DNA from: an uncultured Desulfobulbus sp.
GTDB taxonomy: Bacteria > Desulfobacterota > Desulfobulbia > Desulfobulbales > Desulfobulbaceae
Direction of reading: 5' to 3'
Assembly: GCF_963664075.1 (NCBI RefSeq)
Contig: NZ_OY760916.1
Location: 2,110,001-2,174,000 of the forward strand
DNA: 64,000 nucleotides
The first letter of the stretch is position 1. Each line of letters starts with the position of its first letter. The notes under the pieces were generated by a model that saw only the letters and a program-made list of their open reading frames with translations, was not told the DNA's origin and did no database searches. Shown here in pieces: positions 1 through 9,061 of this stretch. Position numbers and translations under genes: made by a program.

Positions 1-49
1 CCACGGCAAACAGGATCAGGATCCAGACCAGCAACATAATGATATTCAT
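1..49 (-). CDS. nuoH: NADH-quinone oxidoreductase subunit H (NuoH), N-terminal fragment
   Basis: Sixteen codons are visible before the window ends: an ATG at 49-47, then a very hydrophobic stretch (MNIIMLLVWILILFAV), as expected for the first transmembrane helix of NuoH/ND1. A GAGGAAG ribosome-binding site precedes it. NuoH is the membrane subunit at the junction of the peripheral and membrane arms of complex I and helps form the quinone chamber. The assignment rests mainly on position: it is the first gene after nuoD on the same strand, where nuoH falls in operons that lack nuoEFG. A different short membrane protein cannot be fully excluded from 16 residues. Confidence 0.6.
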   Translation of the reverse strand, partial: MNIIMLLVWILILFAV

Positions 50-164
50 TCTGTTCGCTTCCTCTTGTAATAAACCAAGCACAGTGGATTGTGCAAAGAC
101 ACCCGTGCCCAACTATAACGTTTGGGTTCAGGACTTAATCGCGACCTGAGCCAACAAAGACGGC

Positions 165-1391
165 TTAACGATCGGATTCTCCCAAAACCACATCAAGGCT
201 GCCGATATTGGCGATCAGATCAGCAATCAACTCTCCCTTGCACAGGGCCTTGAGGGAGCTGATATGGATAAAAGATGGGGAGCGGATATGCATGCGGTAG
301 GGGCGATTGTTGCCATCGGAGATGAAGTAGAATCCCAGCTCACCTTTGGGAACCTCGGTGGCCACATAGACATCGCCTTCGAGATAGAGCTTTTTATCGC
401 GCACCAGCTTAACCAGACCACCACCATAGTTACCGGCCTGAGGTACAACCCGGGCGGGTGCCTTAAAGGGCATGACCAGATCTGGAGCATCCGGCCCGAA
501 AATAGGTCCGGGAGGCAGCTGGTCGATGCACTGTTGAATAATGCGCACCGACTGGAGCATCTCTTCCATACGACAACGATAACGGGCGTAGATATCCCCC
601 TCGGTCGCCAGAGGTACTTCAAAGTCGACCTTGTCGTAGGCGTCGTAGGGCTGATGTTTACGGATATCGTAATCCACCCCAGAGCCGCGCAGGCAGGCAC
701 CGGTGAGCCCTAAACCAAGGGCCTCTTCTCCGCTGAGTTTGCCCACACCAACGGTACGTTTAAGCCAGATACGGTTGGTGTCGATCAGGGTTTCGTATTC
801 CTCCATTTTGGAGGGGAACATGTCGAGAAACCGTTGAAGCTCATCAATGAAATAGCGGCTGACATCCTGGCGCACCCCACCAATGCGGGGATAGGAAAAG
901 GTCAGTCGTGCCCCGCAGAGCTCCTCAAAGAGATCAAGGAGAATTTCTCGCTCACGGAAGCAGTAGAGAAAGACGGTCATGGCCCCGATATCAAGGGCAT
1001 GGGTCGCCAACCAGAGGAGGTGGGAACAGAGCCTGGACATCTCGCCCACGATGGTGCGGATATACTGGGCCCGCTCGGGAACGGAGATGGCAAGCAATTT
1101 TTCAACCGCCACACAGTAACCAATGTTATTGGACATGGCGGCGATATAATCAAGCCGATCCGTCAAGATGAGTGCCTGGGCGTAGGTTTTACTTTCGGCG
1201 AGTTTTTCAAATCCACGATGGAGGTACCCAACCTGTGGATTGCACTCCATAATGGTTTCACCATCAAGCTCTAGGTCAACCCGCAAAACACCGTGGGTCG
1301 CAGGATGCTGAGGCCCCATACGCAGAGAGTAGCGTTCGCTCTCTCCGTCAACCACAGGCACCTCGATGGTTTTGGACGTTGTCTGACTCAT
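165..1391 (-). CDS. nuoD: NADH-quinone oxidoreductase subunit D (NuoD, 49 kDa subunit)
   Basis: A 408-residue NuoD of normal length. Near residues 25-35 it has the GPQHPATHG loop, whose histidine lines the quinone site in this family. The family-typical [11 protein letters not shown] and [10 protein letters not shown] segments follow, and the C-terminus ends in the conserved [11 protein letters not shown]. NuoD and NuoC form the connecting part of complex I that takes electrons from the N2 cluster in NuoB to quinone. It is separate from NuoC, not fused. Its start shares one base with the nuoC stop. Downstream, 115 bp separate it from the putative nuoH, and nuoE, nuoF and nuoG are absent from that gap. 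Confidence 0.96.
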
Positions 1392-1972
1392 CAGTCCTCC
1401 TCCCTGGGATCATACTGCCCGTGGGCATGGCCTTCAGGGTCAAAGCCGTGTTTATCGAGTTCTTTGACCTTTTCCAGCAACTCGGTCATCCCCTTCCATT
1501 CCACCTTGCCTTTAAGGGGATAACTTTTCTGCAGGGGATGTCCCTCCCAGTCCTCGGGCATGAGTACACGCCGCAAATCAGGATGCCCGGTAAAGCTGAT
1601 GCCCATGAGATCGTAGGTCTCTCGTTCCAGCCAATCAGCCCCTGGCCAGAGCTCAACCACGGAGTCAATGGCGGGATCTGTATCCCCCACTTCCGCCCGG
1701 AGACGGATTTCATGACCAAGGGTAATGGAATAGAGGTTATAGACCACCTCGAACTTGGAGAGTTTGGGATCTTTTCGCCTGGAGTTATCGACCCCACAGA
1801 GCGCTCGCAGATGATTCATCTGCAAAGAGGGGTCATCGCGCAGATAGGTGACCATCTCTTTGATGCGACCAGCACGGACGATCACTGCGCCCTGCCCCTG
1901 GTTGAGGTAGCTGTCGATGACTTCCTCGGGAAACCTGGCCCTGATTTGCTCGATTATCGCCACTGGCTCCAT
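1391..1972 (-). CDS. nuoC: NADH-quinone oxidoreductase subunit C (NuoC, 30 kDa subunit)
   Basis: A 193-residue protein with the NuoC signature around residues 115-150 ([20 protein letters not shown]), followed by the [17 protein letters not shown] segment typical of the 30 kDa family. Its role is structural: it clamps NuoD and NuoB in the connecting module of complex I. The ATG at 1972 lies 19 bp inside the nuoB 3' end and its stop touches the nuoD start, so translational coupling through nuoB-C-D is likely. The C-terminal tail is acidic and short. Confidence 0.95.
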
Positions 1973-2475
1973 CGGAACTGCTCCTGTTGAATTTTTTCCT
2001 GGAGCTTGAGGAATCCCTCAAGCAGGGCCTCGGGACGTGGAGGACACCCCGGCACATAGACATCGACCGGAATAATCTGATCAACCCCTTGGGTGACAGC
2101 ATAGGTATCAAAAACGCCTCCGGAGCAGGCACAACTGCCCATGGCAAGGACGTAGCGCGGTTCGGGCATCTGATCATAGACCCGGCGCAGAACCGGAGCC
2201 ATTTTTTTGGTCAGGGTACCGGCAACCACCATGCAGTCTGCCTGGCGAGGACTTGCGCGAAAGAGAATACCAAAGCGATCAAGATCGTTGGTTGAGGCAC
2301 CGGCATCCATCATTTCAATGGCACAGCAGGCCAGACCAAAGGTCACCGGCCAGATTGACCCGGAACGGCCCCAGTTGACCAGTTTGTTCAACGGGCCAAG
2401 TACAGCGTTGGCACCGGGAATAAAGCGTACCCCCTCCTCCAACTCGACCATGGTTGAATCGTTTATTTCTCCCAT
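1954..2475 (-). CDS. nuoB: NADH-quinone oxidoreductase subunit B (NuoB, N2 cluster subunit)
   Basis: A 173-residue PSST-family subunit that carries the terminal iron-sulfur cluster N2 of complex I. The tandem cysteines C50-C51 ([11 protein letters not shown]), a cysteine in GSCACSGG and one in VPGCPPRPE supply the expected N2 ligands. The [13 protein letters not shown] loop is also conserved. It starts 13 bp inside nuoA and overlaps nuoC by 19 bp. It resembles the complex I form, not the NiFe-hydrogenase small subunit, because the neighbours are nuoA, C and D and no hydrogenase large subunit is present. Confidence 0.95.
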
Positions 2476-2834
2476 TGCAGAACTCCTTTTTTCCAGGCGT
2501 AAACATAGCCCACCAACAGAAGTGCGATGAACAGCAGCATCTCGACCAGGGCAAAAAGTCCCAGCCGATCATAGCTCACTGCCCAGGGATAGAGATAAAT
2601 GGCTTCAACATCAAAGACCACAAAGAGAATGGCGATCAGATAGAACTTGACCGAAAAACGCATTCGTGGGGCCTCGGTCGGCTCATTACCCGATTCGTAG
2701 GCAACCAGCTTTTCCTTGTACGGCCGGCTCAAACGAAAGAACCGGCCGATAACCAGGGTCAGCACACCAAACAAAACACCAAAGATCAGCAGCAGTAAAA
2801 TGCCGAGATATTCCTTGGGCAGCGCTTCCATCAT
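2463..2834 (-). CDS. nuoA: NADH-quinone oxidoreductase subunit A (NuoA)
   Basis: A small membrane subunit (123 residues) with three predicted helices: about residues 9-29, 65-85 and 90-110. The conserved polar loop between helices 1 and 2 is present ([17 protein letters not shown]), followed by [19 protein letters not shown], the hallmark of NuoA/ND3. I chose the ATG at 2834, not the TTG at 2837, because AGGAG lies 7 bases upstream of the ATG. It begins 10 bp after the ferredoxin gene ends, so the redox genes upstream and the nuo genes look like one transcription unit. Confidence 0.94.
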
Positions 2835-2844
2835 CAAAAAACTC

Positions 2845-3351
2845 CTATGAGCGTCGGTTTTCCATCAACTGCTCGGCATAGGCCTGACGAGCTGTTTGAG
2901 AAGCCTCTGACGGGGTGGTGAAATGGAGACAGTTGGTCACACATTTGGCTACACAGGCGGGTTCCAATCCCTGGTCGATACGGTCCATACAGAGATCGCA
3001 CTTGCCGACTTTGCCGGTTTCCGCATTCCATTGGGGGACGGTCCAGGGGCAGGCGGTGATGCAGGCTTTGCAGCCAACGCAGGACTTGGCATCCACATAG
3101 ACAATGCCGTCTTTTTCGCGACGACGCATGGCCCCGGTGGGACAGGCGTCGATGCACCAAGCCTTTTCACAGTGAAAACAGGAAAGGTAGACGAAATTGA
3201 TCTTCGGGGTTGGCTCACCAGGCGCTTCCACCTTGAGCATGCGACAATAAAACGCATCAGGTCCGGGCTTGTTTTTTGATTTACAATGCACCTCACAGGC
3301 CCGGCAGCCAATACAATCGGCCACATCCTGAACGATAAGATATTTACTCAT
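2845..3351 (-). CDS. four-cluster 4Fe-4S ferredoxin subunit (HycB/DmsB/PsrB family) next to complex I genes
   Basis: A 168-residue electron-transfer protein with about sixteen cysteines in four clusters. The sets include CIGCRACEVHC at residues 13-23, CFHCEKAWCIDACPTGA, CVGCKACITACPW and CDLCMDRI...CVAKC. This is the standard beta subunit of molybdopterin oxidoreductases (DmsB, PsrB, PhsB, HycB, FdhB families). I start it at 3351, not further upstream, because AAGGAG sits just ahead of that ATG. There is no signal peptide. It lies between the molybdoenzyme (17 bp upstream) and nuoA (10 bp downstream). By inference it carries electrons from the molybdenum subunit to complex I subunits in place of NuoEFG; the exact partner is not shown by sequence. 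Confidence 0.88.
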   Translation of the reverse strand: MSKYLIVQDVADCIGCRACEVHCKSKNKPGPDAFYCRMLKVEAPGEPTPKINFVYLSCFHCEKAWCIDACPTGAMRRREKDGIVYVDAKSCVGCKACITACPWTVPQWNAETGKVGKCDLCMDRIDQGLEPACVAKCVTNCLHFTTPSEASQTARQAYAEQLMENRRS

Positions 3352-3368
3352 TTCAACTCTCCTTAGGG

Positions 3369-5453
3369 TTAAACGGGGGTAACAGTAACAAAACTTTCGG
3401 CAAGATTCAGGCCACCACCGGCCTTGTCCCACTCCTTGAGTTTACCCTTCATGTAGAGTTGATCAGCCAGACCTTTTTTATAGGCCCGCTTTTTGGCTGG
3501 TACGCGTGTACCAAATCCATGGAGCATGAAGACTGCCTCGGGGTGGATAAGGTCGGTTACTTTCGCAATTATAGTGCCCTGCTCATCGCCGTTGGCCACC
3601 ATAACGCGCGCACCGTCCTTTATCCCTAATTTTTTTGCAGCCTGGGTATTGATCCACAGTTTATTCTCCCGTAAGAGGTCATTGAGCAAAGGATTGTTCT
3701 GGTGATGACCATGGGCCTGATAGCCGTTTCGCCCAAAAAGGAGACGGAAACTGCCTTCCGGTGGCGCCTCGGGAGCTTCATAGGGAACTAACGAGGGAAC
3801 CCCCATAGCTTCCCACTTTTCGTTGACGATTTCAATCTTTCCGGAGTCGGTTCCAAATTTTAGGTTATCCCGGTCATACCAGATTGCTTCATCACTGAGC
3901 TTAACAAAGCCTTTCTCATCAAAATCAGAAACGCTCAGCCCCGTATCCTGTAACTGGTAAGCCCAGATATCCTCAATGGTCTCAAAGGGGAAATACTCGC
4001 CTTTACCCATACGCCGGGCGATTTCCAAGTAAATCTCCCAGCCAGCCTTGGTATTATTCAAAGGTTCTACACATTGCTCACGACGACCAAAGCCAGGTTT
4101 CAGCCCTTTCTCAGTACGCAGTATGGATGCACGTTCCACGTAGGTATTTTCAGGAAGGATTACATCGGCAAACCAGGCTGTATCACTGAAGTTGATGTCG
4201 ACTGAGACGATAAGCTCAAGCTTATTTAAGATACGCATCTGCTCGTCGGTGTCGGGCAGTGCGATAAAAGGATCATGCCGATGAATGAAGTAGGCCTTGA
4301 GTGGATAAGGCTCTTCTTTTTCAATGGCCTCGTAAGCTGTCTGCAGCATACCAGCACCGGCATCCCATTGGGGATACCGTGTTCCGCAGCCATCTGCGCG
4401 TTCCTCCCCCACACCGGGAACCAGGGCTCCAAGGCTTTTGAGGCCCGAACGACCTGCATCTTTAGGAGTTTTGGGGTAAAAAAGTCCACCAGGTTGCTCA
4501 ATAGAGCCCATGAGTGCATTGATAATGTGGATCATACGTGAGGCAAAGTATGAATCCCGATAACGGGCAAGCATCCAGCCTGGATGAAAGATAACTTTGG
4601 GACGGTCTTGATTCAGTTCGCGGCAGAAGGCCTCGATCTCCTCAGCAGCAATACCTGTTTCATTGGCAGCCCACTGGGCGGTATACGGCTCAAGAAAGAC
4701 ACGCAGTTCCTTCATACCATTGACGTACTTGTCGACAAATTCTTTGTCGTAATAGCGATTTTTGACAAGTACATGGGCAATACCCAGCAACAGCGCATAA
4801 TCAGTGCCTGGCTTATTCTGCCAGTAACGTGTTGCTTTTCCCGCAGTCACAGAGGCACGAGGATCGATGTAGGTGACGTGACATCCTTTTTTTACCGCCT
4901 TCAGAAAACTTTTAACCTCTTTGACCTTAAGCGCTTCTGTGATATTGCGTCCGAAAAGGACAATATGCTGAGCATTGGCAAAATCGTAGGCAAACCCTTT
5001 ACGCCCCATACCGTACAAAGATTTTGCGGCATGGTGAACGTTACGGCCACAGGTACAGTCGTGATTGATGTAGTTGGGAGAGCCTAAAGCCTTAACAAAG
5101 GCCTTACGCAGATCGGCAAAAGGACCACCCCGATCAGAGAACATGATGGAACGAGCACCATGTTCGTTGATGATGGAACCAAGCTTATTGGTGATATAGT
5201 CAAAGGCCTCTTCCCAGCTTGCTTCACGCCACTTCCCTTCTCCACGTTCACCTACGCGAATCATCGGAGATTGCGGACGCTGTTTATCTTCACGCTGTGC
5301 GAAAGTAGCGGCCCCTTTAGCACAGAGACTGCGCCCCATACCAGAGTCGTTAGCATTGCCTTCTATCCATACAGGTTCACCATTTTCCACTTCTACGGTC
5401 ACCGGACAGCGAACGGCGCACATGCCGCAGATACTATACTTAGTCTCACTCAT
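3369..5453 (-). CDS. molybdopterin oxidoreductase (PsrA/PhsA/FdhF-like catalytic subunit), no Tat signal
   Basis: A 694-residue DMSO-reductase-family enzyme. An N-terminal 4Fe-4S site (C9, C12, C16, C44) precedes the molybdopterin domain. In the region that usually supplies the molybdenum ligand there is NHDCTCGRN (C133 and C135), so Cys ligation as in polysulfide/thiosulfate reductases is likely. The C-terminal dinucleotide-binding domain starts near residue 585 (FRLLFGRNGYQAHGHHQNNP). The protein begins MSETKYSICGMC, with no twin-arginine leader, so it should be cytoplasmic, whereas PsrA/PhsA are normally exported. No NrfD/PsrC membrane anchor gene follows; the next genes are the ferredoxin and nuoA-D. 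The substrate is unknown: formate, a sulfur compound or an internal donor are all possible. It could act as the electron-input module of this complex I. Confidence 0.85.
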   Translation of the reverse strand: MSETKYSICGMCAVRCPVTVEVENGEPVWIEGNANDSGMGRSLCAKGAATFAQREDKQRPQSPMIRVGERGEGKWREASWEEAFDYITNKLGSIINEHGARSIMFSDRGGPFADLRKAFVKALGSPNYINHDCTCGRNVHHAAKSLYGMGRKGFAYDFANAQHIVLFGRNITEALKVKEVKSFLKAVKKGCHVTYIDPRASVTAGKATRYWQNKPGTDYALLLGIAHVLVKNRYYDKEFVDKYVNGMKELRVFLEPYTAQWAANETGIAAEEIEAFCRELNQDRPKVIFHPGWMLARYRDSYFASRMIHIINALMGSIEQPGGLFYPKTPKDAGRSGLKSLGALVPGVGEERADGCGTRYPQWDAGAGMLQTAYEAIEKEEPYPLKAYFIHRHDPFIALPDTDEQMRILNKLELIVSVDINFSDTAWFADVILPENTYVERASILRTEKGLKPGFGRREQCVEPLNNTKAGWEIYLEIARRMGKGEYFPFETIEDIWAYQLQDTGLSVSDFDEKGFVKLSDEAIWYDRDNLKFGTDSGKIEIVNEKWEAMGVPSLVPYEAPEAPPEGSFRLLFGRNGYQAHGHHQNNPLLNDLLRENKLWINTQAAKKLGIKDGARVMVANGDEQGTIIAKVTDLIHPEAVFMLHGFGTRVPAKKRAYKKGLADQLYMKGKLKEWDKAGGGLNLAESFVTVTPV

Positions 5454-6133: not shown

Positions 6134-6484
6134 ATGGGTAGATTCAAATCTTTTTTTACAAAAACAGGGCAACCCACTGAAAAAACAACTTATTGCCCTA
6201 ACTGCCCCCCCTCTCAACGAGGGTGTCCTCTCGCGGGCTTTCCGCTGTCGCTCGCCAGCGAAGGCGAAAAGGTCCGCATTATTATGATCCGTAAAGGGAA
6301 AATGCTGCATGAACGTCTGGGGAGCATGGGATTGAAGGTGGATGATGCCATAACTGTCATAAAAAAACAGCCAGGTGGTGGCACCATCATTGAGAAATCA
6401 GGTAACCGCTATGCGCTGGGTGGCGGCATGTCACTCAAAATTAACGTTATGAGGTGTGAAGGAAATGGAACAGACGCTTGCTGA
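6134..6484 (+). CDS. feoA: FeoA domain protein with a cysteine-containing N-terminal extension
   Basis: A 116-residue protein. The last 75 residues form a FeoA (SH3-like) domain, starting LAGFPLSLASEGEKVRI and including HERLGSMGL and GGGMSLKINVM. FeoA proteins are small cytoplasmic partners of the ferrous-iron transporter FeoB. The first 40 residues are extra and hold CPNC...GC, a possible metal site. The upstream ATG at 6134 has no clear ribosome-binding site, so a later start is possible, but the cysteines directly before the domain favour a start that includes them. It overlaps the second feoA by 20 bp and heads the feoA-feoA-feoB-feoC operon. Confidence 0.85.
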   Translation: MGRFKSFFTKTGQPTEKTTYCPNCPPSQRGCPLAGFPLSLASEGEKVRIIMIRKGKMLHERLGSMGLKVDDAITVIKKQPGGGTIIEKSGNRYALGGGMSLKINVMRCEGNGTDAC

Positions 6485-6704
6485 TATAAAGGTTGGCGAA
6501 CAAGCCATGATTATTGGGTTTCAGCAGTCCAGTCAGCCCTATCGCCAGAGACTGCTGGCCATGGGGTTGACCAAAGGAACGAAACTGCGCGTGTCACGGG
6601 TAGCTCCTCTTGGTGATCCTGTGGAAATTGAGGTTCGAGAATACAACCTCAGCCTGCGAAAAGAAGAAGCAAAAGCCCTCGTGGTTGGGAGAATTAATCC
6701 ATGA
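6465..6704 (+). CDS. feoA: second FeoA domain protein
   Basis: A 79-residue FeoA-type protein. The SH3-like fold signature is visible in the segments LADIKVGEQAMI, RQRLLAMGLTKGTKL, APLGDPVEIEV and LSLRKEEAKALVV. The ATG at 6465 is preferred over the GTG at 6456 because a GGAA-type ribosome-binding site lies ahead of it and the family usually starts shortly before the L-x-x-I-K-x-G motif. Its stop overlaps the feoB start in the ATGA pattern, so the two are probably translationally coupled. Having two FeoA proteins before one FeoB is known in several anaerobes; the two differ clearly in sequence and are not recent copies. Confidence 0.9.
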   Translation: MEQTLADIKVGEQAMIIGFQQSSQPYRQRLLAMGLTKGTKLRVSRVAPLGDPVEIEVREYNLSLRKEEAKALVVGRINP

Positions 6705-9061
6705 AACATTTGACACTTGGTGTGGTCGGAAATCCGAACTGCGGCAAAACCACTTTGTTCAACCTGCTGACCGGCGCAAAACAACGGGTGGGCAACTGGC
6801 CCGGAGTGACGGTGGATCGGAAAACAGGCAGTTACCATTATGACGACACCTCTGTTGAAGTAATTGATACACCTGGAATCTATTCCCTTTCAACCTCTTC
6901 ACTTGATGAACAGGTTACTCGGGATTTTTTGCTTACCTCTCAGGCAGATCTGATTGTCAACATTATCGATGGATCAAACATAGAACGAAATCTCTATCTC
7001 ACCAGCCAACTTCTTGAGATGCGCCTGCCCGTGGTCGTGGCTGTGAACATGATGGACATGGCCTTAGACAAGGGACTCGTGATCGATATCGACGGGTTGG
7101 CACAACGATTGGGTTGCCCGGTTGTTGCCATGACGGCCTCTAAAAACAAAGGAATCGAAGAACTCAAGGCTGTTGCAGGGGCTTCGGCGACCACTTCACA
7201 TATAGCATCCCAGGCTGAAGTCCTGTTTCCGGAATCTGTGCAGGAGGCCATCAGTCACCTTACTCCTGAATTCAGTCAAAGCTGCGCCGTCCATGGTGTG
7301 GATCCTCGCTGGCTTGCTCTCAAACTCTTGGAGGGAGAACAGGCTCCTCTGAGCAAGATACAGCTCAGCGAGTCGACGCTGAGTAAAGTTGACGCTCTTC
7401 GGCAGGAGATTGAAGCCAAAGAAGAGGAAGAGACTGATATCGTTATTGCTTCAGCCCGTTATGGTTTTGTCAGTTGGCTGACCAAAGATGTGGTCAGTAA
7501 ACGGGGCCGCATAAACAATACCCTTTCTGATCGCATTGATGGTGTTGTTCTCAGTCGGATTTGGGGGCTACCGCTCTTTCTCCTGGCCATGTATCTGATG
7601 TTCATGTTCACCATTAATTTGGGCGGGGCATTCATCGACTTCTTTGACCAGGCGGCAGGAACCATTTTTGTTGATGGTTTTGGCGCTGCGTTGGCGGCGG
7701 TGCAGGCTCCTGAATGGCTGATTGCTGTCCTGGCAACAGGCATTGGTGGCGGCATCCAGACCATGGCGACTTTTATCCCCCCCATTGGTTTTATGTTCCT
7801 CTTTCTCTCCTTTCTCGAAGATTCGGGCTACATGGCAAGGGCCGCCTTTGTCATGGACCGTTTCATGCGCTTTATCGGGCTACCTGGTAAGGCCTTCGTC
7901 CCCATGCTGGTGGGATTTGGTTGTAATGTTCCTGCCATCATGGCGACTCGTACTTTGGAAAACGACCGTGATCGGCTCTTAACCATCATGATGAACCCTT
8001 TCATGTCCTGTGGAGCCAGATTACCAGTTTACGCCCTTTTTGCAGCGGCCTTCTTCCCTACTGGAGGGCAAAACCTGGTTTTTCTTCTCTACCTGATCGG
8101 TATTGGCTTTGCAGTACTGACTGGTCTGATTTTAAAGCACACGCTGTTGCAGGGAGAGGCCACCCCCTTTGTCATGGAAATGCCGCCCTACCACCTGCCC
8201 TCTTTTCGCTCGGTTATTATACGCGCCTATGATCGCTTGCAAAGCTTCCTTTTTAAAGCAGGCAAGGTGCTCATTCCTGTAATCATGGTACTGGCAGTCC
8301 TTAACTCTTTGGGAACGGATGGTAGTTTTGGCAACGAGGATACAGACCAATCAGCTTTAGCAAGCCTCAGTCAGGTAATCACCCCTGCCCTACACCCTTT
8401 AGGGGTCAGTGATGAAAACTGGCCAGCAACCGTGGGAATATTTACGGGTATTTTTGCCAAAGAAGCCGTGGTGGGAACCCTAGACTCCCTCTACAACAGG
8501 CTCGATAAGCAGCCAGGTGATGAAGGTGGAGATGCGGGCGAATCTTTTGCCTTCTGGAAGGGGATTCAAGGGGCGTTTGCTTCTATTCCTGAAAATTTAC
8601 TGGGCGTGCTGGACACCTTTGCTGATCCGCTGGGTCTTTCCATTGGCGAGGTCGGCGATACAAACACCGCCGCTCAGGAACAGGAGGTCAGTGTCTCGAC
8701 TTTTGGTTCCATGGTCACACTCTTTGGCAGTCAGAGCGCAGCCTTTGCGTACCTGCTCTTTGTCTTGTTGTATTTCCCCTGCAGTGCGGCAATTGGAGCT
8801 GTCTATCGGGAAACGAATCTGGCCTGGACCGGTTTTGTTGGTTTCTGGACTACTTTCCTTGCCTACTTTGCCTCTACACTTTTTTACCAGCTGGCTAATT
8901 TCGCGAGTAATCCCGGTTACGCCACCCTGGTTATTGGTCTCGATTTCAGTGCGCTGATAAGCGTCATTGTCATTCTCAAAATTGTGAGTACCCGCAAAAA
9001 GCAGAGGGAGATTCCTGTCTTCAACCAACCGCTTGCCGCTGAATTCACCACCAGAAAATAG
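6701..9061 (+). CDS. feoB: ferrous iron transporter FeoB
   Basis: A 786-residue Fe(II) uptake protein of the inner membrane. The N-terminal G domain shows G1 (GNPNCGKT, residues 10-17), G3 (DTPG) and G4 (NMMD). A helical GDI-like spacer follows, then a membrane domain with two Gate regions containing conserved cysteines (GFGCNVPAIMATR and MSCGARLPVYALF). Length and domain order are those of intact FeoB. It starts by an ATGA overlap with the second feoA and is followed 8 bp later by feoC. Iron-dependent regulation is likely from the family but no clear operator was found. Confidence 0.97.
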   Translation: MKHLTLGVVGNPNCGKTTLFNLLTGAKQRVGNWPGVTVDRKTGSYHYDDTSVEVIDTPGIYSLSTSSLDEQVTRDFLLTSQADLIVNIIDGSNIERNLYLTSQLLEMRLPVVVAVNMMDMALDKGLVIDIDGLAQRLGCPVVAMTASKNKGIEELKAVAGASATTSHIASQAEVLFPESVQEAISHLTPEFSQSCAVHGVDPRWLALKLLEGEQAPLSKIQLSESTLSKVDALRQEIEAKEEEETDIVIASARYGFVSWLTKDVVSKRGRINNTLSDRIDGVVLSRIWGLPLFLLAMYLMFMFTINLGGAFIDFFDQAAGTIFVDGFGAALAAVQAPEWLIAVLATGIGGGIQTMATFIPPIGFMFLFLSFLEDSGYMARAAFVMDRFMRFIGLPGKAFVPMLVGFGCNVPAIMATRTLENDRDRLLTIMMNPFMSCGARLPVYALFAAAFFPTGGQNLVFLLYLIGIGFAVLTGLILKHTLLQGEATPFVMEMPPYHLPSFRSVIIRAYDRLQSFLFKAGKVLIPVIMVLAVLNSLGTDGSFGNEDTDQSALASLSQVITPALHPLGVSDENWPATVGIFTGIFAKEAVVGTLDSLYNRLDKQPGDEGGDAGESFAFWKGIQGAFASIPENLLGVLDTFADPLGLSIGEVGDTNTAAQEQEVSVSTFGSMVTLFGSQSAAFAYLLFVLLYFPCSAAIGAVYRETNLAWTGFVGFWTTFLAYFASTLFYQLANFASNPGYATLVIGLDFSALISVIVILKIVSTRKKQREIPVFNQPLAAEFTTRK

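Follow-up and report, generated by a model that had tools for sequence, protein, structure and literature searches.

Gene content of the locus

The window analyzed here is a 64,000-nucleotide stretch from an uncultured Desulfobulbus sp. (assembly GCF_963664075.1, contig NZ_OY760916.1, positions 2,110,001 to 2,174,000 of the forward strand), whose genome is a single contig of 4.78 Mb. Its first 5,453 positions hold one end of a minus-strand operon in which a molybdopterin oxidoreductase, here termed MoA, and a four-cluster ferredoxin, here termed Fd4, precede the genes of respiratory complex I. The full run comprises 13 genes in the order MoA, Fd4, nuoA, B, C, D, H, I, J, K, L, M, and N. An earlier note, made from the DNA letters alone, had described this run as far as the start of nuoH, and the open reading frames (ORFs), Pfam, and NCBIfam agree with the genes and positions that it gave. 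The features are as follows (L, G, and f numbers, here and below, are our handles for loci, genomes, and families).

3369..5453, minus strand: MoA, PsrA/PhsA-type molybdopterin oxidoreductase, 694 amino acids (aa) (ORF list, Pfam/NCBIfam, AlphaFold2 and Foldseek)
2845..3351, minus strand: Fd4, four-cluster [4Fe-4S] ferredoxin of the PsrB/DmsB/NrfC type, 168 aa (Pfam/NCBIfam, PDB matches)
2463..2834, minus strand: nuoA, from ATG; alternative start at 2837, TTG (ORF list, Pfam)
1954..2475, minus strand: nuoB (ORF list, Pfam, NCBIfam)
1391..1972, minus strand: nuoC (ORF list, Pfam, NCBIfam)
165..1391, minus strand: nuoD, quinone-type (ORF list, Pfam, NCBIfam)
1..112, minus strand: start of nuoH, the rest of the gene lying beyond the window edge
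genome positions ~2,102,528-2,110,112 (L007 6528-14112), minus strand: operon beyond the window, through nuoI-N

As the earlier note had it, the intergenic gap between MoA and Fd4 is 17 bp and that between Fd4 and nuoA is 10 bp from the first ATG (7 bp from the earlier TTG), with overlaps among the later genes. Beyond position 1, the operon continues as nuoH through nuoN and terminates at convergent topoisomerase-like genes (named by eye); nuoL was named by Pfam, and nuoM and nuoN from their size and order and from their resemblance to other Nuo sets. The genes nuoE, nuoF, and nuoG, which the note had found missing between nuoD and nuoH, are indeed absent there, and none occurs anywhere in the 13-gene run as followed beyond the window to the convergent genes. 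The operon therefore encodes NuoA, B, C, D, H, I, J, K, L, M, and N together without NuoE, F, and G, which is the composition of an 11-subunit complex I, and lacks the NuoEFG module of a 14-subunit NADH complex I. The finding that the earlier note had named as refuting its reading, nuoEFG further along this operon, thus did not occur. No NrfD/PsrC-type membrane subunit is found among the 13 genes.

The Nuo subunits score as genuine complex I components, with NuoD (508.7 bits against a cut-off of 459.35 for TIGR01962) and NuoB (236.1 against 142.7 bits for TIGR01957) both above threshold. The expected motifs are seen in both proteins: NuoB has the cysteines that we take to bind cluster N2, and NuoD, which is of the quinone type, lacks the cysteines that we take to be [NiFe] ligands. 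A group 4 [NiFe] hydrogenase was considered and rejected, as NuoD reaches 20.8 bits with PF00374 versus a cut-off of 25.8 and has no CxxC at its ends (by eye). Elsewhere in the same genome are a complete nuo operon including nuoE, F, and G, which starts at about 907 kb, and a group-4-hydrogenase-like cluster.

MoA is related to PsrA and PhsA

The MoA profile matches PsrA from Thermus over nearly its full length with 524 bits, followed by acetylene hydratase (273 bits) and formate dehydrogenases (at most 237 bits). The best NCBIfam model is that of thiosulfate reductase PhsA, at 540.6 bits and thus below its equivalog cut-off of 694, and the formate dehydrogenase model scores 228.5 bits versus an equivalog cut-off of 666.25. 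An AlphaFold2 model of MoA built from 61 sequences has a predicted local distance difference test (pLDDT) value of 93.0; a model from only 10 sequences was of low quality (pLDDT 61.5) and was set aside. Foldseek places PsrA closest to this model (E = 5e-58, template modeling (TM) score 0.90), then ArrA (0.88) and acetylene hydratase (0.85).

The N-terminal [4Fe-4S] motif of MoA is formed by C9-C12-C16-C44. C135 is the predicted Mo/W ligand; it aligns with the cysteine of PsrA that we take to be the Mo ligand and is conserved in 166 of 167 alignment rows, the remaining row having a gap. The residue that follows C135 in the 167 rows is most commonly Gly (102), Ala (32), Lys (20), Ser (7), or Arg (5). 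In formate dehydrogenases, the Mo-ligating Cys or Sec is followed by His. A formate dehydrogenase assignment was rejected on the scores and on this residue. No twin-arginine translocation (Tat) signal is seen on MoA, which starts directly at the iron-sulfur motif (by eye), and MoA is presumably cytoplasmic; another PsrA-type protein in the same genome does bear a Tat signal (by eye). Judged by its sequence and predicted fold, MoA is a Tat-less relative of PsrA/PhsA and not a formate dehydrogenase. The donor, which the earlier note had called unknown, can thus be narrowed by the family of MoA to a compound of probable PsrA/PhsA-type sulfur chemistry, with formate disfavored.

Among the PDB matches of Fd4, the perchlorate reductase subunit PcrB has the best E-value (residues 48-146 of Fd4) and PsrB the second best (residues 1-149); PsrB alone of the three best matches spans the protein.

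Conservation of the gene order

The best named relative is Desulfobulbus rhabdoformis DSM 8777, whose MoA is 92% identical. Within the genus Desulfobulbus, MoA is present in 21 of 23 genomes, the window's own included, and was not found in G013 (74% complete) and G018 (99% complete). In 18 of the 21, again counting the window's own, nuoD lies just downstream on the same contig and strand. The remaining three are two genomes whose contigs end inside the run (G005 and G016; one contig retains Fd4 and part of nuoA, the other Fd4, nuoA, and part of nuoB) and one unresolved fragment (G020). The adjacency of MoA and nuo, which the earlier note had asked to be sought in other genomes, is confirmed as not due to chance. 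G018, a single contig, has one NuoD and neither a MoA nor a NuoF match, perhaps another EFG-less complex I with a different partner.

In a survey of named loci restricted to the best 80 of 287, and hence biased to close kin, 47 loci have MoA-Fd4-nuo, 6 have MoA with a flavoprotein, 18 have neither (including L099, scored in this way though a flavoprotein stands further on), and 9 lie on contigs that end too early. The gaps at the operon head, measured in 46 of the 47 linked loci with guessed start codons, are 11-17 bp between MoA and Fd4 in 34 and 3-15 bp between Fd4 and nuoA in 38. Holders of this layout include Desulfocapsa, Candidatus Desulfobulbus rimicarensis, Thermodesulfatator autotrophicus, and metagenome-assembled genomes of Thermodesulfobacteriaceae. 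Tandem MoA copies of differing identity occur at L076 (5943-12079, one of the two nuo-linked) and L099 (305-5141).

Evidence for a functional unit

Eighteen genomes were hand-picked from four other families of the phylum and searched for NuoF with PF01512, a search that was positive in 9 of 14 control genomes, and for NuoD. NuoD is present in all 18 and MoA is linked to nuo in 16; in 15 of these 16 linked genomes outside Desulfobulbus there is no PF01512 match, G295 being the exception. A supply of NuoEFG in trans was accordingly rejected for the 15 genomes. In the four genomes of family f75, the sole NuoD is the MoA-linked one.

At three loci (L115, L118, and L119), MoA shares no more than 51-52% identity with that of the window and groups with MoAs that have no adjoining nuo genes. 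The nuoA-D genes of L115 place with Desulfobulbaceae and those of L119 with the Desulfocapsa group (L118 is cut), and the Fd4s of all three are nearest to nuo-linked Fd4s; outside the loci labeled as nuo, the best match of these Fd4s is at L081, which lies at a contig edge and belongs to the nuo clade. By these placements, MoA was swapped in place for a cousin, with nuo and Fd4 retained. In family f39, the nuo order is reshuffled (B, D, I, A, C, H, J, K ...) and MoA-Fd4 still stands at the head, as seen at seven loci, one of them traced to nuoN.

Published proteomics of Desulfolithobacter dissulfuricans is consistent with the notion of a unit. In the relevant passages of that paper, PhsA-1, PhsB-1, and two Nuo proteins carry the consecutive tags GF1_30490, 30500, 30510, and 30520, from which we take the gene order, and four Nuo proteins, those two included, were detected solely during thiosulfate disproportionation (PMC9751629). 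PhsA-1 and PhsB-1 were detected in both conditions, with PhsA-1 slightly higher in disproportionation (PMC9751629). Because of the NuoF-less genomes, the in-place exchange of MoA, the reshuffled nuo genes, and these proteomics, MoA-Fd4 and complex I probably form one unit. The idea of the earlier note that the molybdenum subunit and ferredoxin are a dedicated input module gains support from the first three of these and from the conservation of the layout.

One of the reshuffled f39 operons (L223 1559-15671, genome G113) has four antiporter-type subunits and possibly moves more ions per electron pair. Two of these subunits (493 and 592 aa) are 51% and 41% identical to counterparts in a third nuo cluster of the window's genome, which is EFG-less, lies at ~3,109,400-3,120,940 (L009 1402-12940), has no MoA at its head, and also encodes four antiporter-type subunits (499, 596, 505, and 471 aa; PF00361), not three. 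In Thermodesulfatator-type operons, a second four-cluster ferredoxin gene is inserted between Fd4 and nuoA (L086 12804-13343 and L224 5483-6016).

Apparent partner swapping and sulfur context across the phylum

A draw of 394 genomes from the phylum contains a MoA-type protein (E ≤1e-150) in 106. The analysis covers the 90 strongest of 121 MoA places (86 census loci and four earlier ones), and the census labels denote tblastn proximity. Sixteen of the 86 census loci, the window's included, are nuo-linked; the links are undercounted because L138-L162 carry at most 1.5 kb of flank, and L151, scored as "other", has nuoD about 3 kb downstream. At 31 of the 86, a flavoprotein or a NuoE/F/G-like gene lies within 4.5 kb on either strand.

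At loci of this second type (L089, L092, L094-L097, L099, L162, L167-L174, L206-L219, L221, and L222), MoA, mostly with Fd4, has as neighbors large flavoproteins, which in the two examples scanned carry Pyr_redox_2 and Fer4_20 domains, and at some loci NuoE/F/G-like genes; at L167 and L215 these neighbors are on the opposite strand. Such loci apparently encode a soluble NAD(P)H-type version of the MoA enzyme, and the MoA catalytic core seems to plug into either soluble NAD(P)H-type flavoproteins or pumping complex I. At L184, L186, and L187 (family f51), a MoA homologue is divergent beside a nuoA-D cluster of another type, and no Fd4 was detected.

A TauE/SafE-like gene lies near MoA in 28 of the 86 census loci. 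Of the 26 census loci L137-L162, 9 from four families have such a gene no more than 1.5 kb upstream of MoA and on its strand; these are raw counts. Pfam confirms the TauE genes of L086, L120, L224, and L061. Sulfite export is the annotated function of TauE/SafE proteins. At the Thermodesulfatator locus L086, genes for a sensor kinase, a sigma-54 regulator, TauE/SafE, and a 210-aa membrane protein precede MoA, which is followed by Fd4, the second four-cluster ferredoxin, and nuoA onwards. These neighbors point by association, which is not proof, to sulfite, thiosulfate, or a related anion. Candidatus D. rimicarensis carries the MoA-Fd4-nuo operon (L077), and the transcript annotations in its published genome figure include PhsAB, NuoABCDHIJKLM, and a TauE/SafE permease; the text of that paper ranks phsAB transcripts directly behind aprAB and sat (PMC7117923).

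Proposed mechanism and energetics

We propose, with a probability of about 0.6, that a Psr/Phs-type pair replaces the NADH module of complex I and that complex I in turn replaces PsrC/PhsC, with electrons exchanged between an intracellular sulfur compound and menaquinone. The 13 genes would then encode one membrane machine, NuoABCDHIJKLMN with MoA and Fd4 in place of NuoEFG. MoA would be a cytoplasmic molybdo- or tungstoenzyme, MoA-Fd4 would dock where NuoG, E, and F otherwise would, and complex I would stand in for the usual membrane subunit C of the Psr/Phs AB pair. Electrons would pass from the MoA active site through its [4Fe-4S] cluster, the clusters of Fd4, NuoI, and NuoB to menaquinone, or back, and ion movement through NuoLMN would be coupled to this path. 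The substrate would most likely be an intracellular sulfur compound, thiosulfate in the first place and polysulfide or sulfane sulfur in the second.

Both directions had been named in the earlier note, and the reverse one may be the likelier: in disproportionation or thiosulfate reduction, menaquinol would reduce thiosulfate at the expense of the ion gradient, the forward direction also being possible. The reverse direction is favored because thiosulfate is the expected PhsA substrate, because intracellular cleavage would release sulfite for the cytoplasmic Apr/Sat/Dsr route, and because Nuo-like genes of D. dismutans, where the cluster runs over 13 tags (RS03515-03575), are reported to be strongly up in sulfur disproportionation, where an "unknown electron-donating oxidoreductase" was suggested (PMC12142623). 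In its most specific form, a reverse complex I that acts as an ion-gradient-driven cytoplasmic thiosulfate or sulfane-sulfur reductase and passes menaquinol electrons via NuoB, NuoI, and Fd4 to a PhsA-type molybdoenzyme, the proposal is tentative and we would put it somewhat below even odds. If true, it would fill in the missing step of reverse electron transport in the disproportionation of inorganic sulfur by Desulfobulbales and Thermodesulfobacteria, and other lineages would have the same AB pair attached to NAD(P)H flavoproteins.

The potential of NAD(P)H is about -320 mV and that of menaquinone about -74 mV. If NAD(P)H and menaquinone both serve as partners, the latter only with a pump, a potential of around -300 to -400 mV is expected for the substrate couple. 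With potentials taken from general knowledge, electron transfer from menaquinol to thiosulfate is 328 mV uphill, and four ions per two electrons balance it at a gradient of ~164 mV; the same calculation gives ~98 mV for sulfur/sulfide and ~179 mV for formate. Thiosulfate thus fits energetically, and formate fits equally by potentials alone.

Alternative explanations

Several observations weigh against the proposed sulfur-linked complex I. Beyond the 31 census loci with a flavoprotein or NuoE/F/G-like gene, 37 of the 86 have MoA near neither that nor nuo (2 are at edges); MoA-Fd4 stands apart from nuo in 2 of the 18 picked genomes (G144 and G367), and L061, within the nuo-linked clade, has no nuo beside MoA and a TauE/SafE gene near it. 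Many holders are sulfate reducers, which need not disproportionate. In the active site, two residues of PsrA that we take to line the polysulfide pocket are changed: H145 aligns with R108 of MoA (Arg in 166 of 167 rows, one gap) and R332 with W293 (Trp in 147 and Tyr in 20 of 167 rows). Because of these two positions, the substrate of MoA may differ from that of PsrA, and MoA is best viewed as a relative of PsrA/PhsA and not as a member of PsrABC/PhsABC. A PF01512 (NuoF-type) match is found in 21 of 23 Desulfobulbus genomes, and because such genes lie elsewhere in the genomes, the gene content of this genus would allow NuoEFG to be borrowed. The D. dissulfuricans authors, in the passages concerned, judged PhsA amounts low for the main enzyme and favored one of the tetrathionate reductase type (PMC9751629).

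The last of these genomic points is what speaks for an ordinary NADH complex I that borrows NuoEFG from a second operon, with MoA-Fd4 unrelated to it. We consider this very improbable: NuoEFG of the window's genome sit in a separate, complete operon, and in 15 of the 16 linked genomes searched outside Desulfobulbus there is no NuoF match. An operon shared for the sake of regulation is a more serious contender, yet still unlikely. MoA-Fd4 would then be a separate soluble enzyme, such as a sulfur reductase linked to ferredoxin or NAD(P)H, co-regulated with a ferredoxin-fed EFG-less complex I. The census loci at which MoA-Fd4 adjoins flavoproteins, or neither partner, speak for this reading; published authors have also suggested that ferredoxin feeds the EFG-less Nuo of Desulfobulbus and others (PMC3608642, in the passage concerned). 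Against it stand the tight operon-head gaps, kept over several families, a link that outlasts both nuo reshuffling and MoA exchange, and the Fd4s at the swapped loci, which stayed nearest to nuo-linked Fd4s.

It is doubtful, but somewhat less so, that the complex runs forwards, with MoA oxidizing a low-potential cytoplasmic substrate, whether formate or some reduced sulfur compound, and the complex pumping ions while it reduces menaquinone. Complex I is reversible and usually runs forwards, and by the same potentials the drop of ~358 mV from formate to menaquinone pays for four ions per two electrons at ~179 mV. The formate dehydrogenase model, too, matches MoA at 228 bits, but MoA is far under the equivalog cut-off and far nearer PsrA. 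The Gly, Ala, or other residue after the Mo-ligand Cys, where His would be expected, and the TauE-like neighbors, which point to sulfur, also oppose formate; forward operation with sulfide or sulfane sulfur is unaffected by these points.

Relation to known systems

Other forms of complex I receive electrons from NADH, F420H2, ferredoxin, or formate. An 11-subunit complex I without NuoEFG has been described in Desulfitobacterium hafniense (PMC11238625) and Thermosulfurimonas dismutans (PMC4911364), whose donor is left open in the passages concerned. In T. dismutans, a protein that lacks a Tat signal and is published as a "formate dehydrogenase" (TDIS_1010) has a tag close to those of the nuo genes (TDIS_1014-1025). 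The Desulfobulbus operon likewise encodes all 11 Nuo subunits and no N-module; unlike these forms, it is headed by a dedicated molybdoenzyme and ferredoxin, which are candidate partners. EFG-less Nuo in Desulfobulbus itself was noted in 2013, with ferredoxin as a possible donor (PMC3608642).

The likeness to Thermus PsrABC (2vpw) and PhsABC lies in the fold of the A subunit (the TM score of 0.90), the N-terminal [4Fe-4S] cluster, the Mo-ligand Cys, and the four-cluster B subunit. Unlike these systems, the MoA operon lacks a Tat signal and an NrfD-type C subunit, has the two pocket positions changed, and includes complex I instead of C. Formate hydrogenlyase (FdhF-HycB) similarly joins a molybdoenzyme and a four-cluster ferredoxin to a NuoI/NuoB/NuoCD-like arm, but MoA is not a formate dehydrogenase, NuoD is of the quinone type and not a [NiFe] hydrogenase, and the membrane arm is that of a complete complex I.

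Papers of 2022 (PMC9751629) and 2026 (PMC13047784) noted "PhsAB without PhsC" in Desulfobulbaceae, the latter as a possible loss of quinone interaction. These are probably the same two proteins as MoA-Fd4, and in D. dissulfuricans the published tags continue into Nuo. The accounts, in the relevant passages, treat the lack of C as a puzzle or as a possibly lost quinone contact, whereas in the arrangement proposed here complex I would supply that contact. In the open-licence PMC literature, no paper was found whose relevant passages join PhsAB without PhsC to EFG-less Nuo. The parts are of known kinds; what is new is their combination, in which a sulfur-type molybdoenzyme is the candidate module for electron input into a complete complex I. 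It would join two published puzzles, PhsAB without PhsC and Nuo without a donor. Open in print are both the donor of EFG-less complex I and the uphill step from menaquinol to thiosulfate or sulfur in disproportionators; the operon would tie the two together and name the proteins. It could explain how Desulfobulbus and related sulfur bacteria link intracellular sulfur chemistry to the membrane energy supply, with the input module of complex I as an exchangeable part whose place a sulfur enzyme may take.

Further features of the window

Promoter- and terminator-like sites were similar to or below shuffled sequence in number and were not used. In a DNA search of plasmid records, 56 matched, and no record held 80% of the query at a single site; the matches listed (20 of 56) cover at most 9% of the query, within the nuo part. 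The viral contigs searched contain no MoA relative. Upstream of MoA and divergent from it, positions 6134-9061 of the window hold two genes resembling feoA and one for a FeoB-like transporter of ferrous iron (by eye).

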